64,000 nt of DNA from Parundibacterium terreum. GTDB lineage: Bacteria; Pseudomonadota; Gammaproteobacteria; Burkholderiales; Burkholderiaceae_D. The notes under the pieces were generated by a model that saw only the letters and a program-made list of their open reading frames with translations, had not been told where the DNA came from and searched no databases. A program made the translations under genes and the position numbers. This document shows, in pieces, positions 37,528 to 49,452 of the stretch (the first letter of the stretch is position 1; each line of letters opens with the position of its first letter). Location of the stretch: assembly GCF_014636315.1 (NCBI RefSeq), contig NZ_BMED01000008.1, positions 78,506-142,505 of the forward strand, read 5' to 3'.

Positions 37528-38278
37528 ATGCGCAGCGCCATCATCGCTTTTGTGCTTGGCGCGGCCTTCCTGCAGCAGCAGGCCAGTCTCTTGCAATGGG
37601 AATATCTTGGCCTGTTGCTTGCCGCTGTGCTCCTTCTTTTCTTCTCCAGCCTTAAATTCGGCAAGCTCAATGCGTACGTCGGGCTGGCGCTGCGAGCGAT
37701 TTGCTTTGCGATTGCCGGCTTCGTCTGGGCCAGTGTCTATGCGCATGCCTATCTGGCGCAGGAATTGCCTGCAGAATGGGAGGGGCGCGATGTGGCCGTG
37801 ATCGGCACCATAGACAGCTTGCCGCATCAGTTTCCGCAAGGCGTGCGTTTCAATTTTGCGGTGGAGCAGATATTGGCCCAAGGGCGGACTGTGCCCGTAT
37901 TGCCCTTCAAGTTGTCGCTATCCTGGTATTCCAGTTTCGGCAGCCAGGAATTTGGCCCCATAGGGGATGTAAAACCCGGTGAGCGCTGGCAATTCACGGT
38001 ACGCTTGAAGCGGCCCCACGGCAACGCGAACGAATATGGGTTTGACTACGAAGCCTGGCTACTGGAGCAAAACCTGCGCGCCACCGGCACCGTCCGTTCT
38101 GACGAGAACAATGCATGGAAGAACCAGCGCCTGGCGAATTTTGTGTGGAGTTTTGGCAATGCCGTAGAGCTCAGCCGCGCGTGGCTGCGGCAACGTATCA
38201 ATGTGGCGCTGCCTGATAAGCCATTTGCAGGCGTGCTGGTCGCGCTGGTCGTAGGCGATCAGCGCGAAGTATCCCAAT
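37528..38278 (+). pseudogene. comEC: comEC 5' part, interrupted by island
   Basis: The first about 250 codons of a ComEC/Rec2 DNA-uptake channel: two or three N-terminal TM helices (residues 1-75), an OB-fold/DUF4131 domain (about 75-210), then the start of the competence domain (AGVLVALVVGDQREVSQ). At 38274-38278 (CCAAT) the sequence changes abruptly to foreign AT-rich DNA and the frame runs into an unrelated tail that stops at 38586. The matching continuation, SDWKVFNRTGIGHLISISGLHITM, resumes at 47768. Full-length ComEC cannot be made from this copy. The 5' fragment may still be transcribed with tatD. Confidence 0.93.
38274..38278. repeat. Left target-site duplication CCAAT
   Basis: CCAAT at the left junction between comEC and the island. 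The same five bases occur at 47763-47767 at the right junction, so removing the island plus one copy restores the comEC reading frame (GTATC-CCAAT-CCGAC). This is the expected footprint of a transposition event with 5-bp duplication. Confidence 0.8.
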
Positions 38279-38287
38279 GGTTATCGA

Positions 38288-38423
38288 CAATTAAAACCTG
38301 TGGTGGCGAATTTCTTAAGTCATTGATTTTAATGGCAGTAGCAATATCTGTATTTTATGCACTTACATTAAAATCTGTTTTGCACGGTAGCATTGCGTTT
38401 TGTCGATTTACAATTAAAACCTG
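38288..38423 (+). repeat. Left-end repeat array of the island
   Basis: CAATTAAAACCTG occurs exactly at 38288-38300 and 38411-38423, with a degenerate copy CATTAAAATCTG at 38366-38377. The exact copies are followed by related tails (GTGGCGAATTT and GTGACGGGTTC). The inverted copy lies at 47740-47752 at the other end. They look like transposase-binding sites. Confidence 0.7.
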
Positions 38424-38451
38424 TTGTGACGGGTTCGGCGATTGGCCTTCC

Positions 38452-38498
38452 TCGAATAGAAAAATCGATACTGGCAAGGTATCGGCTTTTCTATTCGA
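38452..38498. repeat. Long hairpin near the left end of the island
   Basis: TCGAATAGAAAA (38452-38463) pairs perfectly with TTTTCTATTCGA (38487-38498). Inside, CGATAC (38466-38471) pairs with GTATCG (38479-38484), leaving a 2x2 mismatch and a 7-nt loop. No gene ends here in a way that would need this as a terminator, except the chimeric comEC frame. Confidence 0.7.
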
Positions 38499-38620
38499 AT
38501 TCTCAAACGTTACTCGGATACGTGTTGCGCAAGGCTCAATATTGATTCAAATTTCGACCAGCGGCGTCTTTATAACACTCCGGTAAAAACCACGCGCGTT
38601 CTCCATTGTAGTGAATGTGA

Positions 38621-38878
38621 ATGCGAATTTTCTTCACGGAGTTCCCGACCCAAGTTTTCCTACAAGCACCCAGGCGGACCCCTTACTCAATGGGAAAACT
38701 TCAAATTTGGAACGACGTTATCCGCCAGCATCTCACACGTTGGTTTGCGATTGACAACGATGCCCTTGGGTGTCCCCTCCAGTGTAGAGATAACCTGGTC
38801 AAAACTGATGACCGGCTAGGCCTTAGTGCGTTAGATGTGCAAGACCAAATTCGTGAGAGACTGAATTCAATGAAGTGA
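38621..38878 (+). pseudogene. C-terminal fragment of a HAD-type (Swiss-army-knife) protein
   Basis: The last 45 residues (IRQHLTRWFAIDNDALGCP...NLVKTDDRLGLSALDVQDQIRERL) resemble the C-terminal half of HAD domains found in Swiss-Army-knife RNA-repair-type proteins, where W-x-A/V-I-D-D/N-D is the third HAD motif. The N-terminal half with the first catalytic Asp motif is missing; the upstream frame reads nothing related. So this is most likely a broken gene at the island edge. A second, longer HAD-type gene lies at the island's right side. Start position is uncertain. Confidence 0.5.
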
Positions 38879-39029
38879 TTCTATTACCAATGGCCTCGAA
38901 ATTATACCCGTTGAAAAACTTGGATTGGCCGGCCGCTTTCGCCCGAGGCAAGTAGCTGACCGCGAAAACATTGAATTATTTCTGTGATGGTGAGCGTCAG
39001 CTATATCTTGAGGCTGATTGTATTTATTC

Positions 39030-39572
39030 TTACGAAAGCACTTTCTTAGTATGGTCAATTTTCTGGTTACTGTCGATGACCGGTGCGGATGCCAACTCAA
39101 TCTTGTCTTTTGCGGTTGCGGCAACTTCTTTATCTACGTATAACTTCTTGATTCCGTACATTTCCTTACGGGCCCATGAAATATATTCGGCGAACTTAAC
39201 TTCAATGAACTCTGGTTTGACCTGCCGCTGGACCTCACTTCGCTTGGAATCCAATTCGGCACTCAGTTCCTCAAGCGCCATAGAAGTAAGTGAGGCATTC
39301 GCGTACCTGTCGCCATAACGCAGCACCGTGCGGATTGTTGCTGAAGCGCTTGCCAGTGCAGTGACGACAATCGCCATTAGCCTCCACCACATTTCGTAAT
39401 AATTGCCTGATGGGTTGTAAGTGACAAAAGCGGGAGCCGCAACGCCAAGCAAAATTGTCAGTACCGTGAAGAACTGATGCTTCATTTGCATATTTTCTGC
39501 TTTGCACTTTAATTCGAATGCCTCGTCGCGTATATCTTTGATGACGGAGACAATCGCATCTTCTTCTGTCAT
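39030..39572 (-). CDS. SLATT/DUF4231-like two-TM protein
   Basis: A 180-residue protein. An N-terminal acidic helix is followed by two TM helices (HQFFTVLTILLGVAAPAFVTY, about 31-51; WWRLMAIVVTALASASATI, about 62-80), then long charged helices (ASLTSMALEELSAELDSKRSEVQ, about 92-114). This pattern resembles SLATT and DUF4231 proteins. In those families a 2TM unit is often an effector, possibly membrane-disrupting, coupled to nucleotide-signalling partners such as SMODS cyclases. No such partner is next to it here. The start has a strong GGGGGA ribosome site. It is flanked by gene-poor island DNA. Confidence 0.6.
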   Translation of the reverse strand: MTEEDAIVSVIKDIRDEAFELKCKAENMQMKHQFFTVLTILLGVAAPAFVTYNPSGNYYEMWWRLMAIVVTALASASATIRTVLRYGDRYANASLTSMALEELSAELDSKRSEVQRQVKPEFIEVKFAEYISWARKEMYGIKKLYVDKEVAATAKDKIELASAPVIDSNQKIDHTKKVLS

Positions 39573-39897
39573 AAGTCCCCCAATTTTGTAGGGCAGCCTT
39601 TGTTCGATTAGCTACAATCACTATCCAGCACAATTTTTTTTGGCTATAGGAAATCCCCAAACTAGACAAACGCGGTCAGTCAGTTATCAACTCTCATCTA
39701 ATGGCTCGGCATGGTATGAAAGGAATCAACAGAAGGAATTAATGTTTTCTGTCGAGAGCGATTCCTTCATTTAGGAATATCGGCGTTGAAAGTTAAACCA
39801 CTAAAAGTAAAATCGGAAAAACCCCTCCCCACCCGAACCGCTGCCCTAATCTAGGGGCAAGCGATTTTGCTGGTTTAGGCCATTGCATGGCACAACG
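39573..39897. other. Island intergenic stretch, no gene seen
   Basis: About 325 bp of AT-rich DNA between two leftward genes. It probably holds the promoter of the SLATT-like gene. I see no supported coding frame. Confidence 0.4.
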
Positions 39898-40911
39898 TTA
39901 TTGGTCTACGGTATAGCATAAGCGGCCATATTGGCCTACCCCGTGACTGCTTCCTTCAACGGAATATACAGTGATACCTCCAGTATCTAAAAATCCCGCA
40001 GGACAGCCCGGTGGCGATGGTAAAGGAAATGGGGCTCGGTCAGTGTATTGAATATTGAAGCGAAACTTATCTAGGCGAGAATTTGTTCGACTAACATTAG
40101 AGCTAGTGGTTGTCAGTGACGACTCTAGGATGGCCAAACGTGTTGCTATATCGGCAGCGTCGTCGGTAGCGACTGTTGTCTGCTTCGGAATGTACACGGA
40201 ATAATTCCCATTGGGAACTATATTAGTAAATAGCGTCACGGTGGCAGTGTCGTAAATGGTGTTTCCCTTTGCATCTTTTGTGCCTGTTCGAGTACACCCT
40301 AAACTCACCGTATCATTGTTTGCTAAAGTTACTTTGGTATTTTTATCGAATTTGACAGCAGTAGCGCTTTTAGGCGTTTGCCCATAGCATTGCACGGCCC
40401 CTTCAACTTGGATTCCGTTAATGGTCACAGGTCGGTTAAAGCCGGGCGCAACTTGAAAGTTGAAGCTTTGGGCGCTGACCACCTGATGGCGTAATACCAC
40501 GTTTTGAGCGGCTAACGCCATGCATTGGTCGAAAGACTGATATGCCCGACTAACGGTAGTGACCTTTACAGCCGATTGGTCCGACAGCGCGACGGTGCTG
40601 GAATCATAATTCTTACAGAAATTCTTCATCGCTTCTTGAGAGGAACCGTAGGAGCCAGTGAATTTAATTGGAATTGCATCAACCACAGCGTCCAGACCGA
40701 GACCAAATTTGCTGCTCTTGGCGGAACCACTTGCCTCGCAATAATTGTCATGAACGGAATTAAGATACTCGGATGAGCTTGTTTGGATTGAATATTCCCT
40801 TAACCCATCAGTGATGATTGTTTTGCAAGCATCATATATAGTTTCTGTTTGACCTACTATCGGTGTAAGGGCGAAGGCTGGAAGCAAAAAACTTAGCGCT
40901 ACTTTTTTCAT
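39898..40911 (-). CDS. Large secreted protein of unknown function
   Basis: A 337-residue protein with a signal peptide (MKKVALSFLLPAFALTPIVG). Cysteines recur (YDACKT, NYCEAS, NFCKNY, FDQCMA, VQCYGQ, LGCTRT, PGCPAG, RLCYTV), suggesting periplasmic disulfides. A segment near residues 255-285 (AADIATRLAILESSLTTTSSNVSRTNSRLDKF) looks like a short coiled coil, perhaps trimeric. The C-terminus is Gly/Pro-rich. I do not recognise the family. It is monocistronic, with an AT-rich promoter region upstream. Confidence 0.65.
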   Translation of the reverse strand: MKKVALSFLLPAFALTPIVGQTETIYDACKTIITDGLREYSIQTSSSEYLNSVHDNYCEASGSAKSSKFGLGLDAVVDAIPIKFTGSYGSSQEAMKNFCKNYDSSTVALSDQSAVKVTTVSRAYQSFDQCMALAAQNVVLRHQVVSAQSFNFQVAPGFNRPVTINGIQVEGAVQCYGQTPKSATAVKFDKNTKVTLANNDTVSLGCTRTGTKDAKGNTIYDTATVTLFTNIVPNGNYSVYIPKQTTVATDDAADIATRLAILESSLTTTSSNVSRTNSRLDKFRFNIQYTDRAPFPLPSPPGCPAGFLDTGGITVYSVEGSSHGVGQYGRLCYTVDQ

Positions 40912-41406
40912 AAAACCTCCATGTTTTAATGAATACTGAGCTGTTAGCTATTAATTTTAAATTTGCACCAGTTCTGCTTAATCATGTGTTTCCGAACCTT
41001 AATAACAATAGTTTACTTTTTTGCAAAATTCAATATTGTTAATTATCTTCTAGGTTTTGTTGTTTTAGAGGACTCAAGTTAATCTAGTGTTAAAGGAAGG
41101 ACGAGCTCAACATCAAGATGGCAGTAGGGTAAATGATTGTATTTTTGATTTTAATAATTATTTAAAAGCAACATATAATTAAATGGACAGGTCACTACGG
41201 AAATCTTGCTTCATTGGATTAATCAAACAGTCACTTGGGGTTGCCACCATTACAATCGGAGGAGCCCAGAAATCGGTTGTGACAATTTCGGCTGTAAAAT
41301 CTGCAAATTAGATGACTAATAGCAATCAGTTTTGTCGCGTTCCGAACATTTTTTTTGATAGGTTGGACGGATTGTTCAAAGAACTCATAGGACATTGGGA
41401 ATTATT
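40912..41406. other. AT-rich divergent region of the island
   Basis: About 495 bp between the secreted protein gene and the heparin-lyase-like gene. It includes a 42-codon open frame at 41183-41311 (MDRSLRKSC...VKSAN) with a TATAAT just before it, but no ribosome site. I do not count it as a gene. Confidence 0.4.
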
Positions 41407-42168
41407 ATGGGTAAGCAGCCAGACAATGGTCAGAACGGTGTTTCGGACTGGGTATTTGAGTACGAAAGGTCACATTCAGCGAACCGTGAATATTCCTATC
41501 AGGAGATAACTTCTGACGCGAACATATTTCGACGGTGCCTGAAATCAGAGCGATTCGAAATACGGACGGGAGACGTCAGCGAACCTGACCGCATTCGAAC
41601 CGACGGAATTCGCGAGCGCTCGGAAATGGCTCAAATGGAACCGCGAAACTACGAAGAAGAAAAATTTTGGTATGGCTGGTCATTCTTTATTCCAGCTAAT
41701 TATGTAGAGTCGGGAAATGCGCCTGGTACATCGAAGACAGTTGCAATAGCCCAGTTTCATCAGGAACCGTGTGACCACGACGCACAATGGTATCCGGCAT
41801 TCATGTTCGGGAAGAAATATGATGGCCCTTTTGTATTGAGAGTCTTTCCGACGCATCCTACTTTAGCGCAAGCGGAAATTGAACTGCTTAGCCAAGCGGA
41901 TTTCGCGGGCAAGTGGCATGACGTCGTTGTCGAAGCAATGTGGAGCACTAGAGGGAATGGCTATTTTCATGTTTGGGTTGATGACGTGCTTAAGCACAAG
42001 CACATAGGTCCGACGATGTCAAAAGATAATGTAAGCGTCTATTTTAAATACGGCGTTTATCGTCCATCGACGCCGAAATTACCTGTCACTACAGTCGTTT
42101 ATTTCGACAAACCAAAACGGGCGAAAACACGCGCCGAGGTTGATATTCGAATGCTCGAAAAAAACTAA
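41407..42168 (+). CDS. Heparin-lyase-I-like polysaccharide lyase family protein
   Basis: A 253-residue protein resembling the heparin lyase I/PL20 beta-jelly-roll group: ERSEMAQMEPRNYEEEKFWYGWSFFIPANYV, then VAIAQFH, WHDVVVEAMWSTRGNGYFHVWVDDV and VYFKYGVYRPS, all in family order. Such enzymes cleave uronate-containing polysaccharides by beta-elimination. Unlike most relatives it has no signal peptide from ATG 41407 (GGGA 8 nt upstream). That is odd for an enzyme with an extracellular substrate; export by another route or a lost leader is possible. Confidence 0.72.
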   Translation: MGKQPDNGQNGVSDWVFEYERSHSANREYSYQEITSDANIFRRCLKSERFEIRTGDVSEPDRIRTDGIRERSEMAQMEPRNYEEEKFWYGWSFFIPANYVESGNAPGTSKTVAIAQFHQEPCDHDAQWYPAFMFGKKYDGPFVLRVFPTHPTLAQAEIELLSQADFAGKWHDVVVEAMWSTRGNGYFHVWVDDVLKHKHIGPTMSKDNVSVYFKYGVYRPSTPKLPVTTVVYFDKPKRAKTRAEVDIRMLEKN

Positions 42169-42718
42169 TTGGTCATTTCTTCTCCAGTACCAACACACCT
42201 CGTATAACTGGTTACCCATCGCGAGTTCAGCAGCGCGCTCAACCTGACGATAATTCTGGCGCCCGTGCTATCGCACGTGGAATTAACTGAGGTCAGAGGC
42301 GGCCGGCGGATAATGCCATCACGTTGCTGCTGCCGCACCAGTTCCTTCCCTGGCTCGCGCCTCTTGAAATCGCAAGCCTTGTCTGAGTCTAGGGCGAGAT
42401 GTAAAAGTTTGTCGTAGCTACCCGTTTGTTTGCCCTTGGAAATTTACCAATCATAGTCCACCATTCTAGGCATCATAAGGTCGAAGACTCGCTTGCCCGG
42501 TTCGTTGTATGTTGTCAGATAGTCGTGAACGTTGGTGCTCAGTACAGTATTCAGCGTTGAAAAGGCTTGGTCGTAGCCCTGTGGGGGAGGTGTGCCCACA
42601 TGACGTTGAGTAGACGAGGAACGTCATCATTTCATGGTTGCATGCTCTCGCTTCGCAGTTCCTTTCCATACATCAATACGGGTGATGAAAAGTTTTAAAA
42701 TAACAATATCGTGGTCCA
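42169..42718. other. Gene-poor island stretch with a possible decayed frame
   Basis: About 550 bp without an intact gene. On the reverse strand a frame with protein-like composition is noted separately. The rest, including 42180-42420, shows no supported frame and resembles degraded sequence. Confidence 0.4.
42444..42623 (-). pseudogene. Possible C-terminal gene remnant
   Basis: A 59-codon frame without a start codon reads ...GYDQAFSTLNTVLSTNVHD... and ends VDYDW-stop. Its composition is more protein-like than the alternative frames and it ends cleanly, suggesting the 3' end of a lost gene. No family is recognised; it could be chance. Confidence 0.25.
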
Positions 42719-42769
42719 CGAATCATTTGCACAACGGAGTGTTATACACTAAGATATGCAAATGATTCG
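42719..42769 (+). promoter_or_regulatory. abiE promoter with 13-bp inverted repeat
   Basis: CGAATCATTTGCA (42719-42731) and TGCAAATGATTCG (42757-42769) are a perfect inverted repeat. The left arm contains a -35-like TTGCAC (42727-42732), 17 nt before a -10-like TAAGAT (42750-42755). The right arm covers the abiEi start codons. AbiEi antitoxins are known to repress their own promoter by binding inverted repeats, so this is the likely operator. Confidence 0.8.
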
Positions 42770-43607
42770 CGACCAACTACCCCTTGCTAGGCCCTCGCAT
42801 CGGCACCGAATGGTCAGTGCTGCTAAACGTTTCATACAGGCCAGCCAGGCTATTGGCAAGATATCTTTTACTATCGCGGAACTCTGCAAGGACACGGGGC
42901 TGTCAGTGATAGCCGCTCGGGACCAATTAAAGCGCTTGGGAGAACAAGTTGTCAGAGTGTCGCCACGCCAAGATTTTTTTCTCATTGTAAGTCCAGAACA
43001 ATTTGCTATGGGCGCACCGCCTGCTTCTTGGTGGCTCCACGCTTATTTCCATCAGCAAAAAAGTCCTTACTACCTTGCCTTACTATCGGCTGCCGCTGAA
43101 TACGAATCATCTCACCAAGCAGTCCAAGTGGTCCAAGTTATTACGGACAAACCTCGCCGAGAGATAAGCGTCGGTCGAATTCGTATTCAGTTTTTTGTTA
43201 AAAAAAACATTACGACCGCACAGCAAACTCGACTTCCTAACGCTTTTGCACCTTTGAACGTTAGTACTCCGGAAACAACAGCATTGGACCTCCTAAGATA
43301 CGCTCATCGCATCGGCGGACTCGGCCGTGCTACCCAGGCCATTCAAGGCATGCTCTCCAAATTCACGAAAGCTGGTCTTCGAATTGCCCTTGATAATGAG
43401 AAAGAGGATTCCACTGTTCAGCGCCTAGGCTATGTTCTAGAAACTCTTGAACAACACAAGTTTTATCCTCTAGTAGACCGCCGATTACCACGAGAAGTTA
43501 AACGTATCCCGCTTGAACTTCACAAGCAAGATGAGCCAACTCAGACAATACCCTTTTCGAACAGGTGGTCTGTCTTTATCAACGCTGACATAACTGAACT
43601 TTCATGA
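42756..43607 (+). CDS. abiEi: Type IV toxin-antitoxin antitoxin AbiEi
   Basis: A 283-residue protein with the AbiEi layout: N-terminal winged helix (HRMVSAAKRFIQASQAIGKISFTIAEL...AARDQLKRLGEQVVRVSP, about 15-75) and a C-terminal antitoxin domain with TPETTALDLLRYAHRIGGLGRATQAIQGML (about 169-198). AbiEi represses the operon and neutralises AbiEii; together they cause phage-induced growth arrest. The start may be ATG 42756 or 42762; the latter would coincide with the predicted transcription start, giving a leaderless message. It overlaps abiEii by four bases. Confidence 0.85.
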   Translation: MQMIRDQLPLARPSHRHRMVSAAKRFIQASQAIGKISFTIAELCKDTGLSVIAARDQLKRLGEQVVRVSPRQDFFLIVSPEQFAMGAPPASWWLHAYFHQQKSPYYLALLSAAAEYESSHQAVQVVQVITDKPRREISVGRIRIQFFVKKNITTAQQTRLPNAFAPLNVSTPETTALDLLRYAHRIGGLGRATQAIQGMLSKFTKAGLRIALDNEKEDSTVQRLGYVLETLEQHKFYPLVDRRLPREVKRIPLELHKQDEPTQTIPFSNRWSVFINADITELS

Positions 43608-44452
43608 CTCCACTTACACGTCAAGACGTATTACTTCATCAAGCACAAGTTCCATGGCCTGTGCTTTATCAAGTGGAGCAAGACCTCCTTCTTTGCAGAG
43701 CAATGGTCGCAATCTTCAATGATGACTTTCTTTCGCAGCAAGTCGCGATGCGAGGCGGCACAGTTCTTCATAAGGTTCATTTGGCCCCTGCGTCACGCTA
43801 TTCTGAGGACATCGACCTCGTGGTAGTTGGAGACCGGCCCGAGGAACACATCCGAGCAGCAATAAAGCGAGTATTGAAGGACGTACTGGGTACCCATCAA
43901 ACTTGGGGCTGGGAATCGTTGAAACTTGCGGTACGCAACATTGCACAACCCTCGCGTATTCTCCGGGTCATATATCAGGTCCCTTCGGTTATCGACCCAG
44001 GGCGAACCTTGAAAATTGAGGTTGAGGCAAATGTCTCTGAGCGGACACCCTTTATGCCCGTCAAGCGATTTCCATTCTCCATCCAATTTCAGGGGGCGGA
44101 GTTGTCTACCGAGATACCCTCGTTTGACATTCATGAGATGCTAGGAACTAAAATGCGTGCGTTATTCCAGCGGAAAAAAGGGCGAGACCTCTTTGACCTA
44201 TACTGGGCTTTGGCGCAAAACACCACGGAACCGGTTAACGGAGTTGATGTCATTAAGTGTTTCCAACACTATATGAATGAGGAAAAAACCACTGTTCCTC
44301 GACAAGAGTTTCTAGAACACTTAGATATTCGCTTGAAGGATAGTGGATTTTGCTCAGATATGACTGCCTTGCTACGAGCAGGCTTGGAGTATGACGTGCA
44401 ATTAGCCGGCACTTACATTCGCGATAACCTTATTATGAGCTTGGATGAGTAA
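43604..44452 (+). CDS. abiEii: Type IV toxin AbiEii, nucleotidyltransferase
   Basis: A 282-residue DNA polymerase-beta-fold nucleotidyltransferase. Motif I is RGGTVLHKVH...RYSEDIDLVV (about 46-71), with the two catalytic acids in EDIDL. The later KMRALFQRKKGRDLFDLYWAL (about 183-203) carries the conserved Lys/Arg-Asp motif of AbiEii toxins. Related toxins (MenT type) add nucleotides to tRNA acceptor ends and stop translation. ATGA overlap with abiEi indicates coupled synthesis. No key residue appears lost, so the system should be functional. Confidence 0.87.
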   Translation: MTPLTRQDVLLHQAQVPWPVLYQVEQDLLLCRAMVAIFNDDFLSQQVAMRGGTVLHKVHLAPASRYSEDIDLVVVGDRPEEHIRAAIKRVLKDVLGTHQTWGWESLKLAVRNIAQPSRILRVIYQVPSVIDPGRTLKIEVEANVSERTPFMPVKRFPFSIQFQGAELSTEIPSFDIHEMLGTKMRALFQRKKGRDLFDLYWALAQNTTEPVNGVDVIKCFQHYMNEEKTTVPRQEFLEHLDIRLKDSGFCSDMTALLRAGLEYDVQLAGTYIRDNLIMSLDE

Positions 44453-44541
44453 TCGCAAGGCATTGCGCATGAACACATAGGTTATTTCAGAGCGCATTTC
44501 GATTGATGCACTGTTCACATAGATGCCCATCAGCACGGCCG

Positions 44542-45591
44542 TCATCTTACCTTGTTCAAGCAGTTCACAATTGCATCCCATCTTCCGTCTTTAAGCCACT
44601 TGCGATAGTAGAACCTAGCCAAATTTAATTTATTATCTGGAAAGCTTGTTTTTTGCCACGCTATCCCGCAACCTATTTTCCGAATAAGTGCATCAATCAT
44701 CGGTCGCAAGTCGAACTTACTACCTTCACGACAATGCGTTTTGCCAGATTCAATGATTGCCGAAACGTCCGACCATTCGTTGTCTGTGAGAGCCCAATCT
44801 CCGTTGTCGTGCAAATTGATGGTCGAACTGAGAGTGATACCACCGCACTCGGTACTACCGAGCCTGGGACCGACGTCATTCAAATCGAAGTTTGTCAAAC
44901 TGTTGGCGGCAAATTCAAAAGGACACTCATCCGTGGCCAACCGCCTTAAGCGGATTTCCGTTACTAAGAAATATTGTCTCGTGCGACGTCCACGGAATAT
45001 CGCCGACAAGGTTCCTAACGGCAAATCTGCTGATATCAGACCACATAAAGCGTGTCGAAATATGCTATTCCAGAATTTGTTTGCGGAAGGAAAAGACCAC
45101 ATCCATGCGAGGGTACGTCTGTGTCCTTCCGTATAGTAGGGAGATGCGCGCGTACGCCCGTCGGCAGTCGTGGGTGAATGAAGTCGCATGTCCAGAAATT
45201 CTACATCAGACGGAACTCCCTTCATGGGTATGCAAAGCCGCTCAAGGCCGGCCGGCGAGAATAAATCCGGAAACACCTTGTGCTTGGGTCGGAAAAACGC
45301 ATGCATTAGTACCAGGGCTGGTATTAGATACCTAATCCCATTGGATTCAATTTCAAAGACGGAATGACTTTCGTCTATGCCTTGGGGGAAGTCCGCCAGA
45401 GCCAAATAGATGGTGGGACGGCATTTCTTCCAGTCGGAAAAGTTGGTCGTAATTCTTATGGAGTCTGAATCGGTCTTAAGGGACAAGTCGGTCAACTCAT
45501 TAATAGAGCATTTTGCCCGCTCGCCGTCCAGGTCGACTGTCTGCACGCACAACTTCCCGTCTTCGTCCCTCATAAATTTTTCTGCCCACAT
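44542..45591 (-). CDS. Unknown protein with C-terminal IS5-type helix-turn-helix (DUF4096)
   Basis: About 349 residues from ATG 45591. The first about 270 residues match no family I know and include an aromatic, His-rich stretch (LVLMHAFFRPKHKVFPDL). The last about 80 (LTDNEWSDVSAIIESG...FDLRPMIDALIRKIGCGIAWQKTSFPDNK...FYYRKWLKDGRWDAIVNCL) match the N-terminal DUF4096 DNA-binding domain of IS5/IS1182-type transposases, but here it stands at the C-terminus and no DDE catalytic domain follows. So it is not an ordinary transposase. It could be a DNA-binding accessory protein of the island or a domesticated fusion. The open frame extends to 45750, but the upstream part overlaps another coding-like frame. 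Confidence 0.6.
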   Translation of the reverse strand: MWAEKFMRDEDGKLCVQTVDLDGERAKCSINELTDLSLKTDSDSIRITTNFSDWKKCRPTIYLALADFPQGIDESHSVFEIESNGIRYLIPALVLMHAFFRPKHKVFPDLFSPAGLERLCIPMKGVPSDVEFLDMRLHSPTTADGRTRASPYYTEGHRRTLAWMWSFPSANKFWNSIFRHALCGLISADLPLGTLSAIFRGRRTRQYFLVTEIRLRRLATDECPFEFAANSLTNFDLNDVGPRLGSTECGGITLSSTINLHDNGDWALTDNEWSDVSAIIESGKTHCREGSKFDLRPMIDALIRKIGCGIAWQKTSFPDNKLNLARFYYRKWLKDGRWDAIVNCLNKVR

Positions 45592-45595
45592 GATA

Positions 45596-45855
45596 TATCC
45601 CAACTTGAAAGGGACATAAGCAATGGCATTGCACTGGCGCGGTCTGTTGGAAGTTCTTTTGAACTCTCTGATGAAGAAAAACAAGTTCTTTCTGAGGATA
45701 TTAAATTTTGGGCGCAGCAACAGCTTGACGTGCCCAGGGGCGCGATGCAATTTTTTGGACCTTTCAGTAACGTAAAAACGGATATTGATTTTCTAGCTGA
45801 CTTAATAGAGCTAATGCCGCTCTTACTATTAGATAGAGATACCTGCGACGGATAA
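45596..45855 (+). pseudogene. Gene fragment without start
   Basis: A rightward frame reads QLERDISNGIALARSVGSS, then FELSDEEKQVLSEDIKFWA and ends LLLDRDTCDG-stop. It is amphipathic, acidic and clearly protein-like, but has no in-frame start codon with a ribosome site. It begins right where the leftward IS5-HTH gene starts (45591), suggesting an older gene whose 5' part was replaced. Family not recognised. Confidence 0.4.
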
Positions 45856-45907
45856 AGGTGCACTTGGGTCCACAGATTGCGAAATTTAATTTCAACAAGG
45901 ATAACTA

Positions 45908-46273
45908 ATGCACTCGGTGCTATTGAAAACGTTTGGTGGTCTGACAAAACAATATTATTTTCGCCAACTATTTTTCGCACTCCTTATTCCCGCACTCATC
46001 CTTTCCTTAATGAGTTTGGCCCACGATTCCCGTGGAACGCCATTCAGTTTTTATATTTTCGCCGTTGTAAATACTGGCCTATACCCATATTCGCGCTTCG
46101 TATATGAAAGCGTGATTAATTTCATCATTGGGGAAAATGTATTTTATGGAAACGCGATTTTTCTGATGGTCATAAAATTATTTACAATGATGCTGTGCTG
46201 GTTTTTTGCTGTATTTATCGCGCCAATCGGCCTGATATACCTCTACTTTTATCACAGTAAGACCGCGAACTAG
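45908..46273 (+). CDS. Small membrane protein of unknown function
   Basis: A 121-residue protein with three strongly hydrophobic helices: QLFFALLIPALILSLMSL (about 19-36), SFYIFAVVNTGLYPYSRFVY (about 47-66) and AIFLMVIKLFTMMLCWFFAVFIAPIGLIYLYFY (about 83-115). AAGGAT stands upstream of ATG 45908. No family is recognised. A small inner-membrane protein next to defence-type cargo could be an immunity or effector protein, but there is no direct support. Confidence 0.65.
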   Translation: MHSVLLKTFGGLTKQYYFRQLFFALLIPALILSLMSLAHDSRGTPFSFYIFAVVNTGLYPYSRFVYESVINFIIGENVFYGNAIFLMVIKLFTMMLCWFFAVFIAPIGLIYLYFYHSKTAN

Positions 46274-46339
46274 TCTACTTACTGGCTCTAGCGTTGAGTC
46301 TGCATTTGGTCCATGGGTATCCTGCCTAGGTTGCTGGCT

Positions 46340-46732
46340 TTAATTCTCCGGCTCAAGTAAGGAGTTCGGCGGTGCCTGCCAGCCGAGCAGTGATGCCGCA
46401 CGCTGAATGACCCAACGCATTTGGGCGGGCGTGCCCCAATTGGTTTCCAATAAGCGGAGGAGGTATAGGTCCAGGATATCGGCTTCTCTCATATGTGCTC
46501 GCTTGCCTGCCTTCGTGTCCAAGGAGGCTTCTTTGAACTGCTGGGCTAGGTCCTCGCAATAACACCAGTCGGCGTGCAGTTGGGGAGGAGTTCCTCCAGC
46601 CGGGTAAAATTTTCCTTCATATTGCTCAACGACGAACTTGGTTACCGAACCAGGCAGGGTCGAAATAGGACTCGGTCGCGGAAAGCTGTCAGGGACAGCG
46701 AATACGTCAGTCACAACGTGGCCCTTTGTCAT
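46340..46732 (-). CDS. Unknown protein downstream of HAD-type gene
   Basis: About 130 residues from ATG 46732 (MTKGHVVTDVFAVPDSF). The N-terminal half is Pro-rich with VEQYEGKFYPAGGTPPQLHADWCYCEDLAQQFKEA; the C-terminal half is helical (LDLYLLRLLETNWGTPAQMRWVIQRAASLLGW). No family is recognised. Its start overlaps the end of the upstream HAD frame by 26 bp, indicating a two-gene operon, perhaps a toxin/partner or repair pair. Confidence 0.55.
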   Translation of the reverse strand: MTKGHVVTDVFAVPDSFPRPSPISTLPGSVTKFVVEQYEGKFYPAGGTPPQLHADWCYCEDLAQQFKEASLDTKAGKRAHMREADILDLYLLRLLETNWGTPAQMRWVIQRAASLLGWQAPPNSLLEPEN

Positions 46733-47259
46733 TGGTGGCAAGCTGTGCACGCAAAATCTTTTGGGCCGTCCGTAGTTTTGGATATTTGAAGCCTTTCCAA
46801 GCATCACAAAGAACAGCATTCGCCTCCAGGGGCGAACCTTTTAGCGACTTACCTGAGAGCAGGTCGTCCAGAATGACGAAGGCGGCGGGGGGCAGCCGCG
46901 TTGTGGACATCCAACCAGCCAGCAATCTCCTCGGCCCGTTCGGTTTCGGCTGTGCGCGGTGTACGCCATTCCTGGTGCAGGTTGTCAGATACAAACTGGA
47001 GGCCGGTCCTTTTAAACAATTCGACGATTTGGTTTTGTTCGAGCAAAGAAGCCCACGACGATGAAATGACATACTGGGGTTTGAACTCGTCATGGAGTGC
47101 TCGCAAGTTCGCGCACAAAATGGAATCAAAAATTTGTACCCAAAGGTCGGTGTTGTAATCAAGGTCGTTTTGCCGGAACGCGAGGACGACGGCTGAACCT
47201 TTATAGTGGTTGGAAATGGATAACACGTCGTCGAAGTCGAGAAATACTATTGCATTCAC
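46707..47259 (-). pseudogene. HAD-type (Swiss-army-knife) phosphatase-like gene, frameshifted
   Basis: The first frame has NAIVFLDFDDVLSIS with the HAD motif I (DxDxV), then PQYVISSSWASLLE (motif II-like Ser) and EEIAGWLDVHN. It then runs into a short unrelated tail that stops at 46849. In the next frame the expected motif III continues: FVILDDLLSGKSLKGSPLEANAVLC. The shift occurs at a run of six G (46887-46892 on the + strand), so one base gained or lost separates the halves. It may be a true pseudogene, programmed slippage, or a sequencing error. GTG 47259 with GAGAGG upstream is the likely start; ATG 47283 is an alternative. Confidence 0.65.
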
Positions 47260-47289
47260 TTTGTGCCTCTCATCTTTCAGCAATCTTGA

Positions 47290-47303
47290 GTGCGAATTCG
47301 CAC
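47290..47303. promoter_or_regulatory. 14-bp perfect palindrome upstream of HAD-type gene
   Basis: GTGCGAATTCGCAC is a perfect 14-bp palindrome 31 bp upstream of the likely GTG start of the leftward HAD-type gene. It looks like a dimeric repressor site; no known consensus is recognised. Confidence 0.5.
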
Positions 47304-47402
47304 GCCCTTGTAATCAATGATAGTGACAGCAGGGCTTGTTCACAATCGAATTTATTTCCAAATTTCGCAGAAACACTAGAGCGCAAAGCGTAGGCTCAAC
47401 TC

Positions 47403-47752
47403 TTATTTGTCACCACTTTTTGGAGCTCAGGTTTATTTGTCACGCGTATCGGCACGCGGGACGTAAAGCATTGATTTCAATGGAATTCGGGTTTTTGAAC
47501 TTTTTATACGAAGTGGGAGGGAAGATTTGGAGGCAGGAGGAAGATAGGAGTATGGCGTGCTCGTATACTTCATCTCGAACATAGCTGGCAATTCGTTTGG
47601 TACGCAGCGAAATCTAGGCGCCATGCGGGTTTCGGAGGACTGGCTCACTTTTTGGAACAGCTTTTATTGAGCGCAAAAGTGTGGCGTGGCTCCATATTCT
47701 TTGGGATTTTTAGCGAGCGCCGGTTTATTTGTCACAGCTCAGGTTTTAATTG
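47403..47752. repeat. Right-end repeats of the island
   Basis: TTATTTGTCAC occurs at 47403-47413, 47433-47443 and 47725-47735, all in the same direction. AGCTCAGGTTT accompanies two of the sites. CAGGTTTTAATTG (47740-47752) is the inverted copy of the left-end 13-mer. Spacing is irregular, as in multi-site transposon ends bound by TnsB/TniA-type proteins. Confidence 0.72.
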
Positions 47753-47762
47753 GAATGCTATA

Positions 47763-47767
47763 CCAAT
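47763..47767. repeat. Right target-site duplication CCAAT
   Basis: CCAAT at the right island-comEC junction, matching 38274-38278. Confidence 0.8.
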
Positions 47768-49452
47768 CCGACTGGAAGGTGTTTAACCGCACCGGGATAG
47801 GTCATCTGATTTCAATCTCAGGTTTACACATCACCATGGTCGCCGGCCTTTTTGCCGGGCTGGTTTACTGGCTGTGGCGGCGTTCCTTTTTCACTCGCGC
47901 GCAATTGCCCTTGCTGCTGCCTGCGCAAAAGGCGGCAGCCGTTGCGGGTGCGCTGATGGCCTTCATCTATGTAGCGCTGGCCGGTTTCGGCGTTCCCGCC
48001 CAAAGAACCCTGTATATGCTGATGGTCATAGCAGCAGCGATGTGGCTGGGCCGCCTGACCAGTGTATCGCATGTGCTTTGCCTGGCGCTGGGTATCGTTA
48101 TTGTTCTGGATCCCTGGGCGGTATTGTGGCCCGGTTTCTGGCTGTCGTTCGGCGCGGTCGCCATCATCTTGTTTGCCGGCGTGGGGCGGGTGCAGTATGT
48201 TCAGCAGCATGGATTGAAGCGCCGGTGGAGTGAAGTGTGGCGTGAAGCATGGCGGGCCGCCAGCCATACGCAGTATGTGGTGACGGTGGGGCTGGTGCCG
48301 TTGACCTTGTTGCTGTTCGGGCAGATATCGTTGATCAGCCCGGTTGCGAATGCGATTGCGATCCCGCTGGTCAGCTTCGTTGTCACGCCGCTGGCACTGG
48401 CCGGCAGCCTGGCGCCTGCGCCGATTGCCGGCTGGCTGCTGCAACTGGCGCATGCCTGCATCGCCTCGCTGGCCACATGCCTGGAGTATTTAAGCAAGTT
48501 GTCTTACTCGGTATGGACTACGCCCATCCCGGCAGCATGGATGTTTGTGCTGGCAATGCTGGGCACCTTATGGCTGCTGGCGCCGCGCGGCTGGCCCTCC
48601 CGCTGGCTAGGCGCGCTGTGCTGGCTACCGCTGCTGTGCAATCTGCCCAGCCATCCGCAGGAAGGGGATATGACTATCACTGCATTCGATGTCGGGCAGG
48701 GCATGGCGCTGCTGGTGGAAACATCCGGCCATCGATTGCTATACGATACCGGTCCGTTCTATTCGCCGGAATCGGATGGCGGCAATCGCGTGATATTGCC
48801 CTATCTGGATGCGCGCGGCATAGGCAAGCTGGACGCGGTTGTTATTTCGCATAATGACAACGATCACTCCGGCGGGGCCCTGTCGGTATTCCAGCATGTG
48901 AAAGTCGGCTGGGTGACTTCGTCATTGGCTCCGGAGAGCGCCATCGTTGCCGCAGCGCCGAACCACCGGCGCTGCGAGGCGGGGCAGGCCTGGGACTGGG
49001 ACGGCATCCATTTTGAAATGCTGCAGCCGGCAGCGCCCAGCTACGATAGCCAGAAATGGAAGCCGAATGCCCGTAGCTGCATGCTGAAGATTACGCAGGA
49101 CCGGCACTCCATCCTGTTGCCTGGCGATATTGAAGCGATCCAGGAGCAGGAATTGTTGTATAGCTCGGCAGATAAACTGCCGGCGACTGTGCTGCTGGCA
49201 CCCCATCACGGCAGCGGTACGTCTTCGACAGCACCCTTCCTGCAGGCAGTGCACCCTCAGTTGGCCTTATTCCAGGTTGGGTACCGCAATCGCTTCCATC
49301 ATCCCAAGCTTGAAGTTTTTGAGCGCTATGCTGATTTTGGAATAAAACGTCTAAGAACCGACGAATCCGGTGCAATCACATTACAATTCGGGACTGACCT
49401 GGAATTTTCCGAATATCGCAGCGAGCATGCCCGCTATTGGTATCACCGTTGA
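47768..49452 (+). pseudogene. comEC: comEC 3' part, separated by island
   Basis: The remaining about 560 codons of ComEC: the competence domain starts SDWKVFNRTGIGHLISISGLHITMVAG, with about eight TM helices to residue about 300 of this part. A C-terminal metallo-beta-lactamase-like domain (TITAFDVGQGMALLVE, then HNDNDHSGG and LAPHHGSGTSS) follows. The frame stays open leftward into the island to an ATG at 47686, so a chimeric protein starting in the island's right end is conceivable, but it would lack the OB-fold domain. The sequence itself is not visibly decayed, so the insertion looks recent. Confidence 0.93.

Follow-up and report, generated by a model that had tools for sequence, protein, structure and literature searches.

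Mobile elements have been argued to evolve to switch off natural transformation because transformation cures them. In Tn7, the TnsD protein reads glmS beside the right end of the transposon, and the target duplication is usually 5 bp. Faure et al. (PMC10293859) and a review (PMC11406308) describe the targeting of comM by Tn7-like elements and, by term count, do not name comEC in their main texts; neither is comEC named in those passages of Benler et al. (PMC8649781) that contain matching words. The available portion of a further article (PMC11472951) presents comM as a Tn7-like target whose loss merely lowers transformation, whereas comEC inactivation puts Acinetobacter below the transformable threshold. 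Mobile elements also interrupt comEC in Piscirickettsia salmonis, but there various transposable elements break the gene at non-identical positions, and no site-specific targeting is described in the accessible part of that report (PMC12955456). No account in which a Tn7-type element uses comEC for its attachment was found in the literature, of which supplementary files and most subscription papers are not searchable. Here we analyze a 64,000-bp stretch of the Parundibacterium terreum genome (contig NZ_BMED01000008.1, hereafter the window) in which comEC/rec2 is split by a 9,485-bp island. We conclude, with a probability of about 0.9, that this island is what remains, without the transposase, of a Tn7-like transposon, and that comEC is the chromosomal attachment site of the family to which this transposon belongs.

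The island (38278..47762; 46.2% G+C, against 56.5% for the remaining window) separates codons 250 and 251 of comEC. The 5' part of the gene (37528..38277, forward strand) comprises 250 codons, encodes the DUF4131 domain (PF13567, E 2.6e-35) and ends in GDQREVSQ, and the 3' part (47767..49452, forward strand) starts with SDWKVF and encodes the Competence domain, matched from position 9 of the PF03772 profile, together with the C-terminal region. Both halves are open frames and, when joined (GDQREVSQ/SDWKVFNRTG), the flanks align through the junction with each of the 30 same-genus comEC loci compared (L002-L031), which were drawn from the 41 genomes of the genus, own or other, with a comEC match. 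The 66 nt around the site are gap-free in 29 of these loci, and L021 shows a small gap. The nearest aligned locus (L009) is 83% identical to the joined flanks over 473 nt, free of gaps, and differs at one base from the empty-site sequence predicted in the first-pass annotation of this DNA. Relative to the nearest relative, the comEC parts present dN/dS values of 0.05-0.10 (NG86) and 0.11 (YN00, 5' part only); they hence look constrained, which suggests either a recent insertion or retained constraint. The open frames, the low dN/dS values and the same-genus alignments together bear out the first-pass description of a comEC gene split by an island with undecayed halves. Two circumstances named there as arguing against it, a second comEC in the genome and relatives sharing the 9.5-kb segment, did not materialize: a Competence-domain profile search of the own genome (6.37 Mb, 16 contigs, 99% complete) returned a single match, beginning at profile position 9, and of the comEC matches found in 41 of the 43 genomes of the genus 40 begin at profile position 1, the gene being cut here only in the own genome. 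Another genome of the genus (G016; one contig, 97% complete) has no Competence-domain match, and in the nearest relative (L054, G023; a draft 56% complete) the comEC 3' part appears as two overlapping tblastn matches, frameshift-like.

The relatives of the island were identified through one of its genes (44542..45591, reverse strand), which encodes a 349-aa protein that searches, Pfam and fold matches describe as an OB-fold-like region followed by a C-terminal DUF4096 (IS5-type) domain. In seven of the first nine stretches analyzed (20 kb each) its homolog lies downstream of a tnsA-tnsB-tnsC-tniQ operon, and we refer to it as the fifth protein; five of the same nine also have a truncated 5' part of comEC in the vicinity of this gene. 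Relatives were found in nine other genomes among the 392 family genomes searched, and a profile search of 349 order genomes gave four long matches and one of half length, own included, adding G447, G590, G651 and the half-length G623, for 14 genomes overall, own included. The remaining 29 of the 34 genomes from the order search match the DUF4096 part only and were set aside as IS5-type transposases. The reading of 44542..45591 itself as an IS5 fragment, which the DUF4096 match of its last 75 residues might suggest, is ruled out by the full-length relatives. DUF4096, shared with IS5-type transposases, is present in nine of the ten members scanned. The fifth protein is 19-38% identical between most pairs and is shortened in G623 and in G315, where the DUF4096 end is missing. 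Up to an E value of 10, neither Pfam nor the PDB sequences yielded a TnsE match to it, known TnsE proteins being highly divergent, and there is no TnsE structure among the fold matches listed.

All four of tnsA, tnsB, tnsC and tniQ are recognizable in each of the ten other genomes with a cut comEC, as in Tn7-like transposons; in G199, for instance, Pfam identifies TnsA, a Mu-type TnsB C-terminus, a TniB/AAA TnsC and TniQ/TnsD. TniQ measures 381-422 aa in nine of the ten elements and 214 aa in G623, where TnsC is also shortened, and the tnsABC-tniQ elements of G044, G199, G206, G292, G377 and G315 lie inside comEC. Altogether, 11 of the 14 genomes with the fifth protein, own included, share the position at which comEC is cut, and the gene is intact in the other three (G121, G082 and G383, the last with no tns genes in the 20 kb read). 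The ten other cut genomes carry five family-level labels (f1, f9, f49, f4 and f5); they were found via the fifth protein, and elements devoid of it fall outside the sample. Of 340 order genomes, at least 291 have a comEC match.

The position of the cut was read in two ways. At the DNA level, all junctions read in the other genomes (9 of 9 left, 10 of 10 right) show comEC giving way to an element tip at a common place. In addition, the PF03772 match starts at profile position 9 in the own genome, at 10-13 in eight of the ten others (11-13 in G447, G590, G651 and G623) and at 24-27 in G315 and G044. The right tip lies 7-10 bp from the codon preceding a conserved Trp, a codon that encodes Asp in 10 of 11 genomes and Gln in G623. 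Orientation is uniform in the nine genomes with the comEC N-part on the operon stretch, the TnsA side pointing toward the comEC 3' part, just as the right end of Tn7 points toward glmS. Both flanks of the site are conserved, and conservation alone therefore cannot tell which side is read. These comparisons show comEC to be a recurrent, site-specific target of this element family, and the initial guess that a mobile element targets comEC is borne out. A second kind of element is also seen in comEC: in G044 (L076:6088-7974) and G315 (L074:1-799 with L084), genes for large serine recombinases start a further element, which follows the first 57-66 bp of the comEC C-part, at conserved ISISG codons. 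The two recombinases are 67% alike over 266 residues, and Pfam recognizes Resolvase and Recombinase domains in that of G044.

At each end of the window island several predicted TnsB-type sites occur in inverted orientation, an arrangement typical of Tn7-like elements. Throughout the family the tips start with TGG, TGT or TGA, and 8 nt precede the first TnsB-type site. On the left of the window island, all on the forward strand, the tip TGGTTATC (38278..38285) is followed with this same spacing by site L1 (38286..38307; scoring 19.0 bits against a matrix built on sites of other elements), by the weak site L2 (38363..38384; 10.0 bits, alone not above background) at the conserved offset of 77, and by L3 (38409..38430; 18.8 bits) at the conserved offset of 123. 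The left-end offsets are thus 0/77/123 in the window and G044, and 0/77/122 in G199. On the right, all on the reverse strand, the tip TATAGCAT (47755..47762) is degenerate, with TAT at its start, and is followed inward by R1 (47733..47754; 22.8 bits), R2 (47723..47735; 20 nt inside R1 by hand count, likewise in G044 and G199), R3 (47431..47443; same motif as R2) and R4 (47401..47413; two mismatches to that motif). The right-end pattern is accordingly 0/20, then a pair some 275-340 further inward, the window offsets being hand-counted. With the matrix, built from 12 sites of G044, G199 and G121, R1, L1 and L3 rank 1-3 in the 64 kb, above the top score of 20 shuffles (18.1 bits).

Copies of CCAA flank the island at 38274..38277 and 47763..47766, and a 4-bp duplication is likewise read in eight of the ten elements with both junctions available, own included (CCAA in the window, CCAG in G044 and G206, TCAG in G199, GTCA in G377, CCCG in G292, ACCA in G315 and GCAC in G623). 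The duplication had been proposed initially as 5 bp. CCAAT is indeed common to both window flanks, and a 5-bp reading also fits G044 and G199, but it fails in G206, which indicates that the fifth base is due to chance. The duplication itself therefore stands and its length does not: by the family rule it is read as CCAA, the T of the tip coinciding with the T of TCC.

Within the own genome, the end motif has three exact copies, all at the island ends, and seven one-mismatch matches elsewhere. The long right-end pattern occurs only in the own genome among the 392 family genomes; end patterns gave only weak matches in plasmids (E 0.2 or worse), and four viral contigs match a loose end pattern, one of them having been inspected and set aside, and none the tighter one. 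A scan of a genome collection with the end pattern returned two contigs, one of Olivibacter and PKWO01000041 (L043, G126). The latter was rejected as a further copy, given that about two chance matches are expected by estimate and that the matching sequence is in part the end of a gene read as virB5; the exact match of a later pattern in it is circular, this pattern having been derived from that very contig. The single rve transposase of the own genome, which we take to be IS30-like, was also rejected as a partner of the island.

The relationships among the relatives point to repeated arrivals of the element. The TnsC proteins of G044 and G199 are 82% identical and their ComEC C-parts 63%; element proteins closer than the ComEC of their hosts imply that elements move between lineages. 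G292, G315 and G377 belong to a single genus, in which 73 of 74 genomes have a comEC match and these three are cut here, while three further comEC fragments start elsewhere (G745, G367 and G743). Among the three, TnsC identity is 49-51%, which does not exceed that with elements from other families (57% between G377 and G623). Judging from these TnsC and ComEC identities, vertical inheritance alone fails to explain the distribution. A ComEC tree yielded no well-supported branch, and the case for horizontal spread consequently rests on the identities.

Regarding its contents, the window island carries, besides the fifth gene, a SLATT-domain protein (39030..39572, reverse strand; NCBIfam NF033634, E 1.9e-13), a 337-aa protein (39898..40911, reverse) with no Pfam or NCBIfam match and 19 members in a large protein database, itself included (18 other relatives, E up to 0.001), and a polysaccharide lyase family protein (41395..42168, forward; PF14099, E 3.8e-29). 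These are followed by the AbiEi antitoxin (42756..43607, forward; PADLOC AbiEi, E 6.2e-65) and its partner, the AbiEii nucleotidyltransferase (43604..44452, forward; PADLOC AbiEii, E 2.2e-86), which form a type IV toxin-antitoxin or abortive infection pair. Beyond the fifth gene lie a 121-aa open reading frame (ORF; 45908..46273, forward) with no Pfam match, a 159-aa ORF (46340..46819, reverse) 45% identical to one in the G044 stretch L067, and a HAD_SAK_2 domain protein (46849..47283, reverse; PF18143, E 9.7e-12). No recombinase gene was recognized by Pfam or NCBIfam among the ten island ORFs scanned, and the island is best read as a derivative that would have lost its tns operon, a remnant or non-autonomous form and not a complete transposon. 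With tnsABC-tniQ gone and one tip degenerate, it is probably an immobile remnant carrying AbiEi/AbiEii. Defence-type genes also occur in or beside the relatives: of nine chosen proteins, five have PADLOC matches (GajB and an RtcR-like regulator in the G082 stretch, GajA in the G383 stretch, and a reverse transcriptase and a HamB-like helicase inside the G199 element) and four match nothing. Gabija-type GajA/GajB pairs lie near the fifth protein at L072:10971-14105 (G383) and L069:17387-19982 (G082), one protein of each pair having been scanned and the other identified through mutual similarity.

Compared with Tn7 (glmS, TnsD/TnsE), the comEC elements share the order tnsA-tnsB-tnsC-tniQ/tnsD followed by a fifth gene, several TnsB-type sites per end and the 8-nt spacing between tip and first site. 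They differ from it in inserting inside a gene and not downstream of one, in their TGG-like tips and in a fifth protein with no TnsE match in sequence. The elements in comM offer a parallel in kind, as the first-pass annotation had anticipated. In the available parts of the articles cited above (PMC10293859, PMC11406308 and PMC11472951), Tn6022 and the AbaR-type elements are also Tn7-like, disrupt a transformation gene site-specifically, combine a short TniQ with an accessory protein and carry cargo. The target differs, being comM in Tn6022 and comEC, the DNA channel, in all 11 genomes here, which places the latter outside the comM group; the 4-bp duplications of the elements described here are a further difference. 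In addition, TnsF of Tn6022 is described as tyrosine-recombinase-like, a description that sets it apart from the OB-fold-like fifth protein with its DUF4096 end. The type I-B1 CRISPR-associated transposons and Tsy elements found in comM illustrate independent convergence on a transformation gene, although they use guide RNA or a tyrosine recombinase and their target is again comM.

A mechanism can be outlined from these comparisons. In the members that have their tns genes, the TnsA/TnsB/TnsC machine with TniQ would set the element in one orientation, 7-10 bp ahead of the Asp-Trp codons (Gln-Trp in G623); the insertion positions are read in the DNA, and the role of the machine is deduced from its genes. 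TniQ is the likely reader of comEC; by analogy with TnsD of Tn7 at glmS, its HTH-like tail would recognize the conserved codons that lie C-terminal to the cut. The fifth protein may serve a second pathway as a TnsE-like factor, or it may be a co-selector. In the sole ComEC found, insertion disconnects the membrane channel from the N-terminal domain, and transformation should thereby be lost, together with the chance of the cell to replace the island by recombination. In the present host the island would now be fixed, its AbiE pair and other cargo having been kept.

Several observations weigh against the interpretation of the island as a remnant of a comEC-targeting Tn7-like family. There is no tnsA, tnsB, tnsC or tniQ, nor a trace of them, in the island (best E 0.022), its 4-bp duplication departs from the length usual in Tn7, and the duplication is matched at three of four bases in G590 and was not found in G447. 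The tblastn ComEC queries were cut at the window junction, so that their match ends show both parts extending up to it and are uninformative on a shared break; the claim of a common site hence rests on the DNA junctions and the PF03772 starts. For G651, separate contigs hold the operon and comEC, and the comEC N-part was not found; the comEC halves of G292 are likewise split between contigs. G121 and G082 harbor tnsA-tnsB-tnsC-tniQ with the fifth protein (L066 and L069) outside an intact comEC. The tips were assigned by eye, the best score among 20 shuffles (18.1 bits) is near those of the island ends, and the matrix sites were originally collected with a pattern resembling the window motif, so that the score test is partly dependent, the positions and spacings being independent. 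Finally, the fifth protein of the window is 22-33% identical to nine aligned relatives and its fold matches are middling (Z 6.7 and below). The absence of a transposase and the aberrant right tip would also be compatible with an unrelated insert that struck this codon by chance and carries the fifth gene as cargo. Such a coincidence is extremely improbable, because the window island shares with the tns-bearing members its place, the orientation of the fifth gene and the tip-to-site spacing, and resembles them in site motif and left-end spacing.

If the island is such a remnant, it may still be asked which protein reads comEC and what is gained by it. The fifth protein, and not TniQ, could be the reader, a new selector acting via a short TniQ in a manner comparable to TnsF of Tn6022. 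It accompanies all 11 cut comEC genes, though these were found by it, it is retained in the window island, it has an IS5-type transposase domain in almost all members scanned, and the usual TniQ length approaches the limit under which extra selectors are sought by Faure et al. (PMC10293859). Nonetheless, we regard this as rather unlikely: three genomes have the protein and an intact comEC, its sequence is very divergent and in two elements shortened, an OB-fold with DNA binding would fit a TnsE-like factor too, and elements without it would have escaped detection. TniQ, moreover, has its own HTH-like tail, which is missing in G121, where comEC is intact. A role of comEC as just a safe, conserved and non-essential harbor, the arrest of transformation being a side effect with no gain for the element, is credible at a little under even odds; Tn7-like elements often pick conserved genes, as stated in the accessible text of PMC11406308, and the comEC site is conserved on both sides. 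On the other hand, the articles available on comM report that this other transformation gene is independently targeted by several elements, and a serine-recombinase element occupies comEC in two genomes, a convergence that suggests, but does not prove, a benefit. It is quite improbable, in turn, that the comEC 3' part still works when translated from a start inside the island, with DNA uptake kept. A frame open from 47686, the low dN/dS of the comEC parts and a stop-free PF03772 match in the cut relatives are what such a product would call for, but the N-terminal ComEC domain is severed, the comEC C-part of G377 has a frameshift and a recent insertion would likewise give low dN/dS.

Under the preferred interpretation, that of a Tn7-like family with comEC as its attachment site, a broader proposal can be put forward tentatively, as somewhat more doubtful than probable. 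comEC might be a general attachment site on which at least two unrelated kinds of element converge, the Tn7-like one before Asp-Trp and that of the large serine recombinases some 60 bp further downstream. The reason would be that a disabled uptake channel shields the resident element from being removed through transformation. The Tn7-like family, for its part, might own a new accessory protein of OB-fold/IS5-HTH type that acts in target choice. The Tn7-type case known so far concerns comM; comEC, by contrast, forms the channel itself and is struck at one place across five family-level labels of one order. The idea of a conflict between mobile elements and transformation thus becomes testable with defined parts, and Tn7 biology would gain an attachment site as well as a candidate for an accessory protein. 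Furthermore, comEC fragments that look ordinary in an annotated genome may be signs of such elements.

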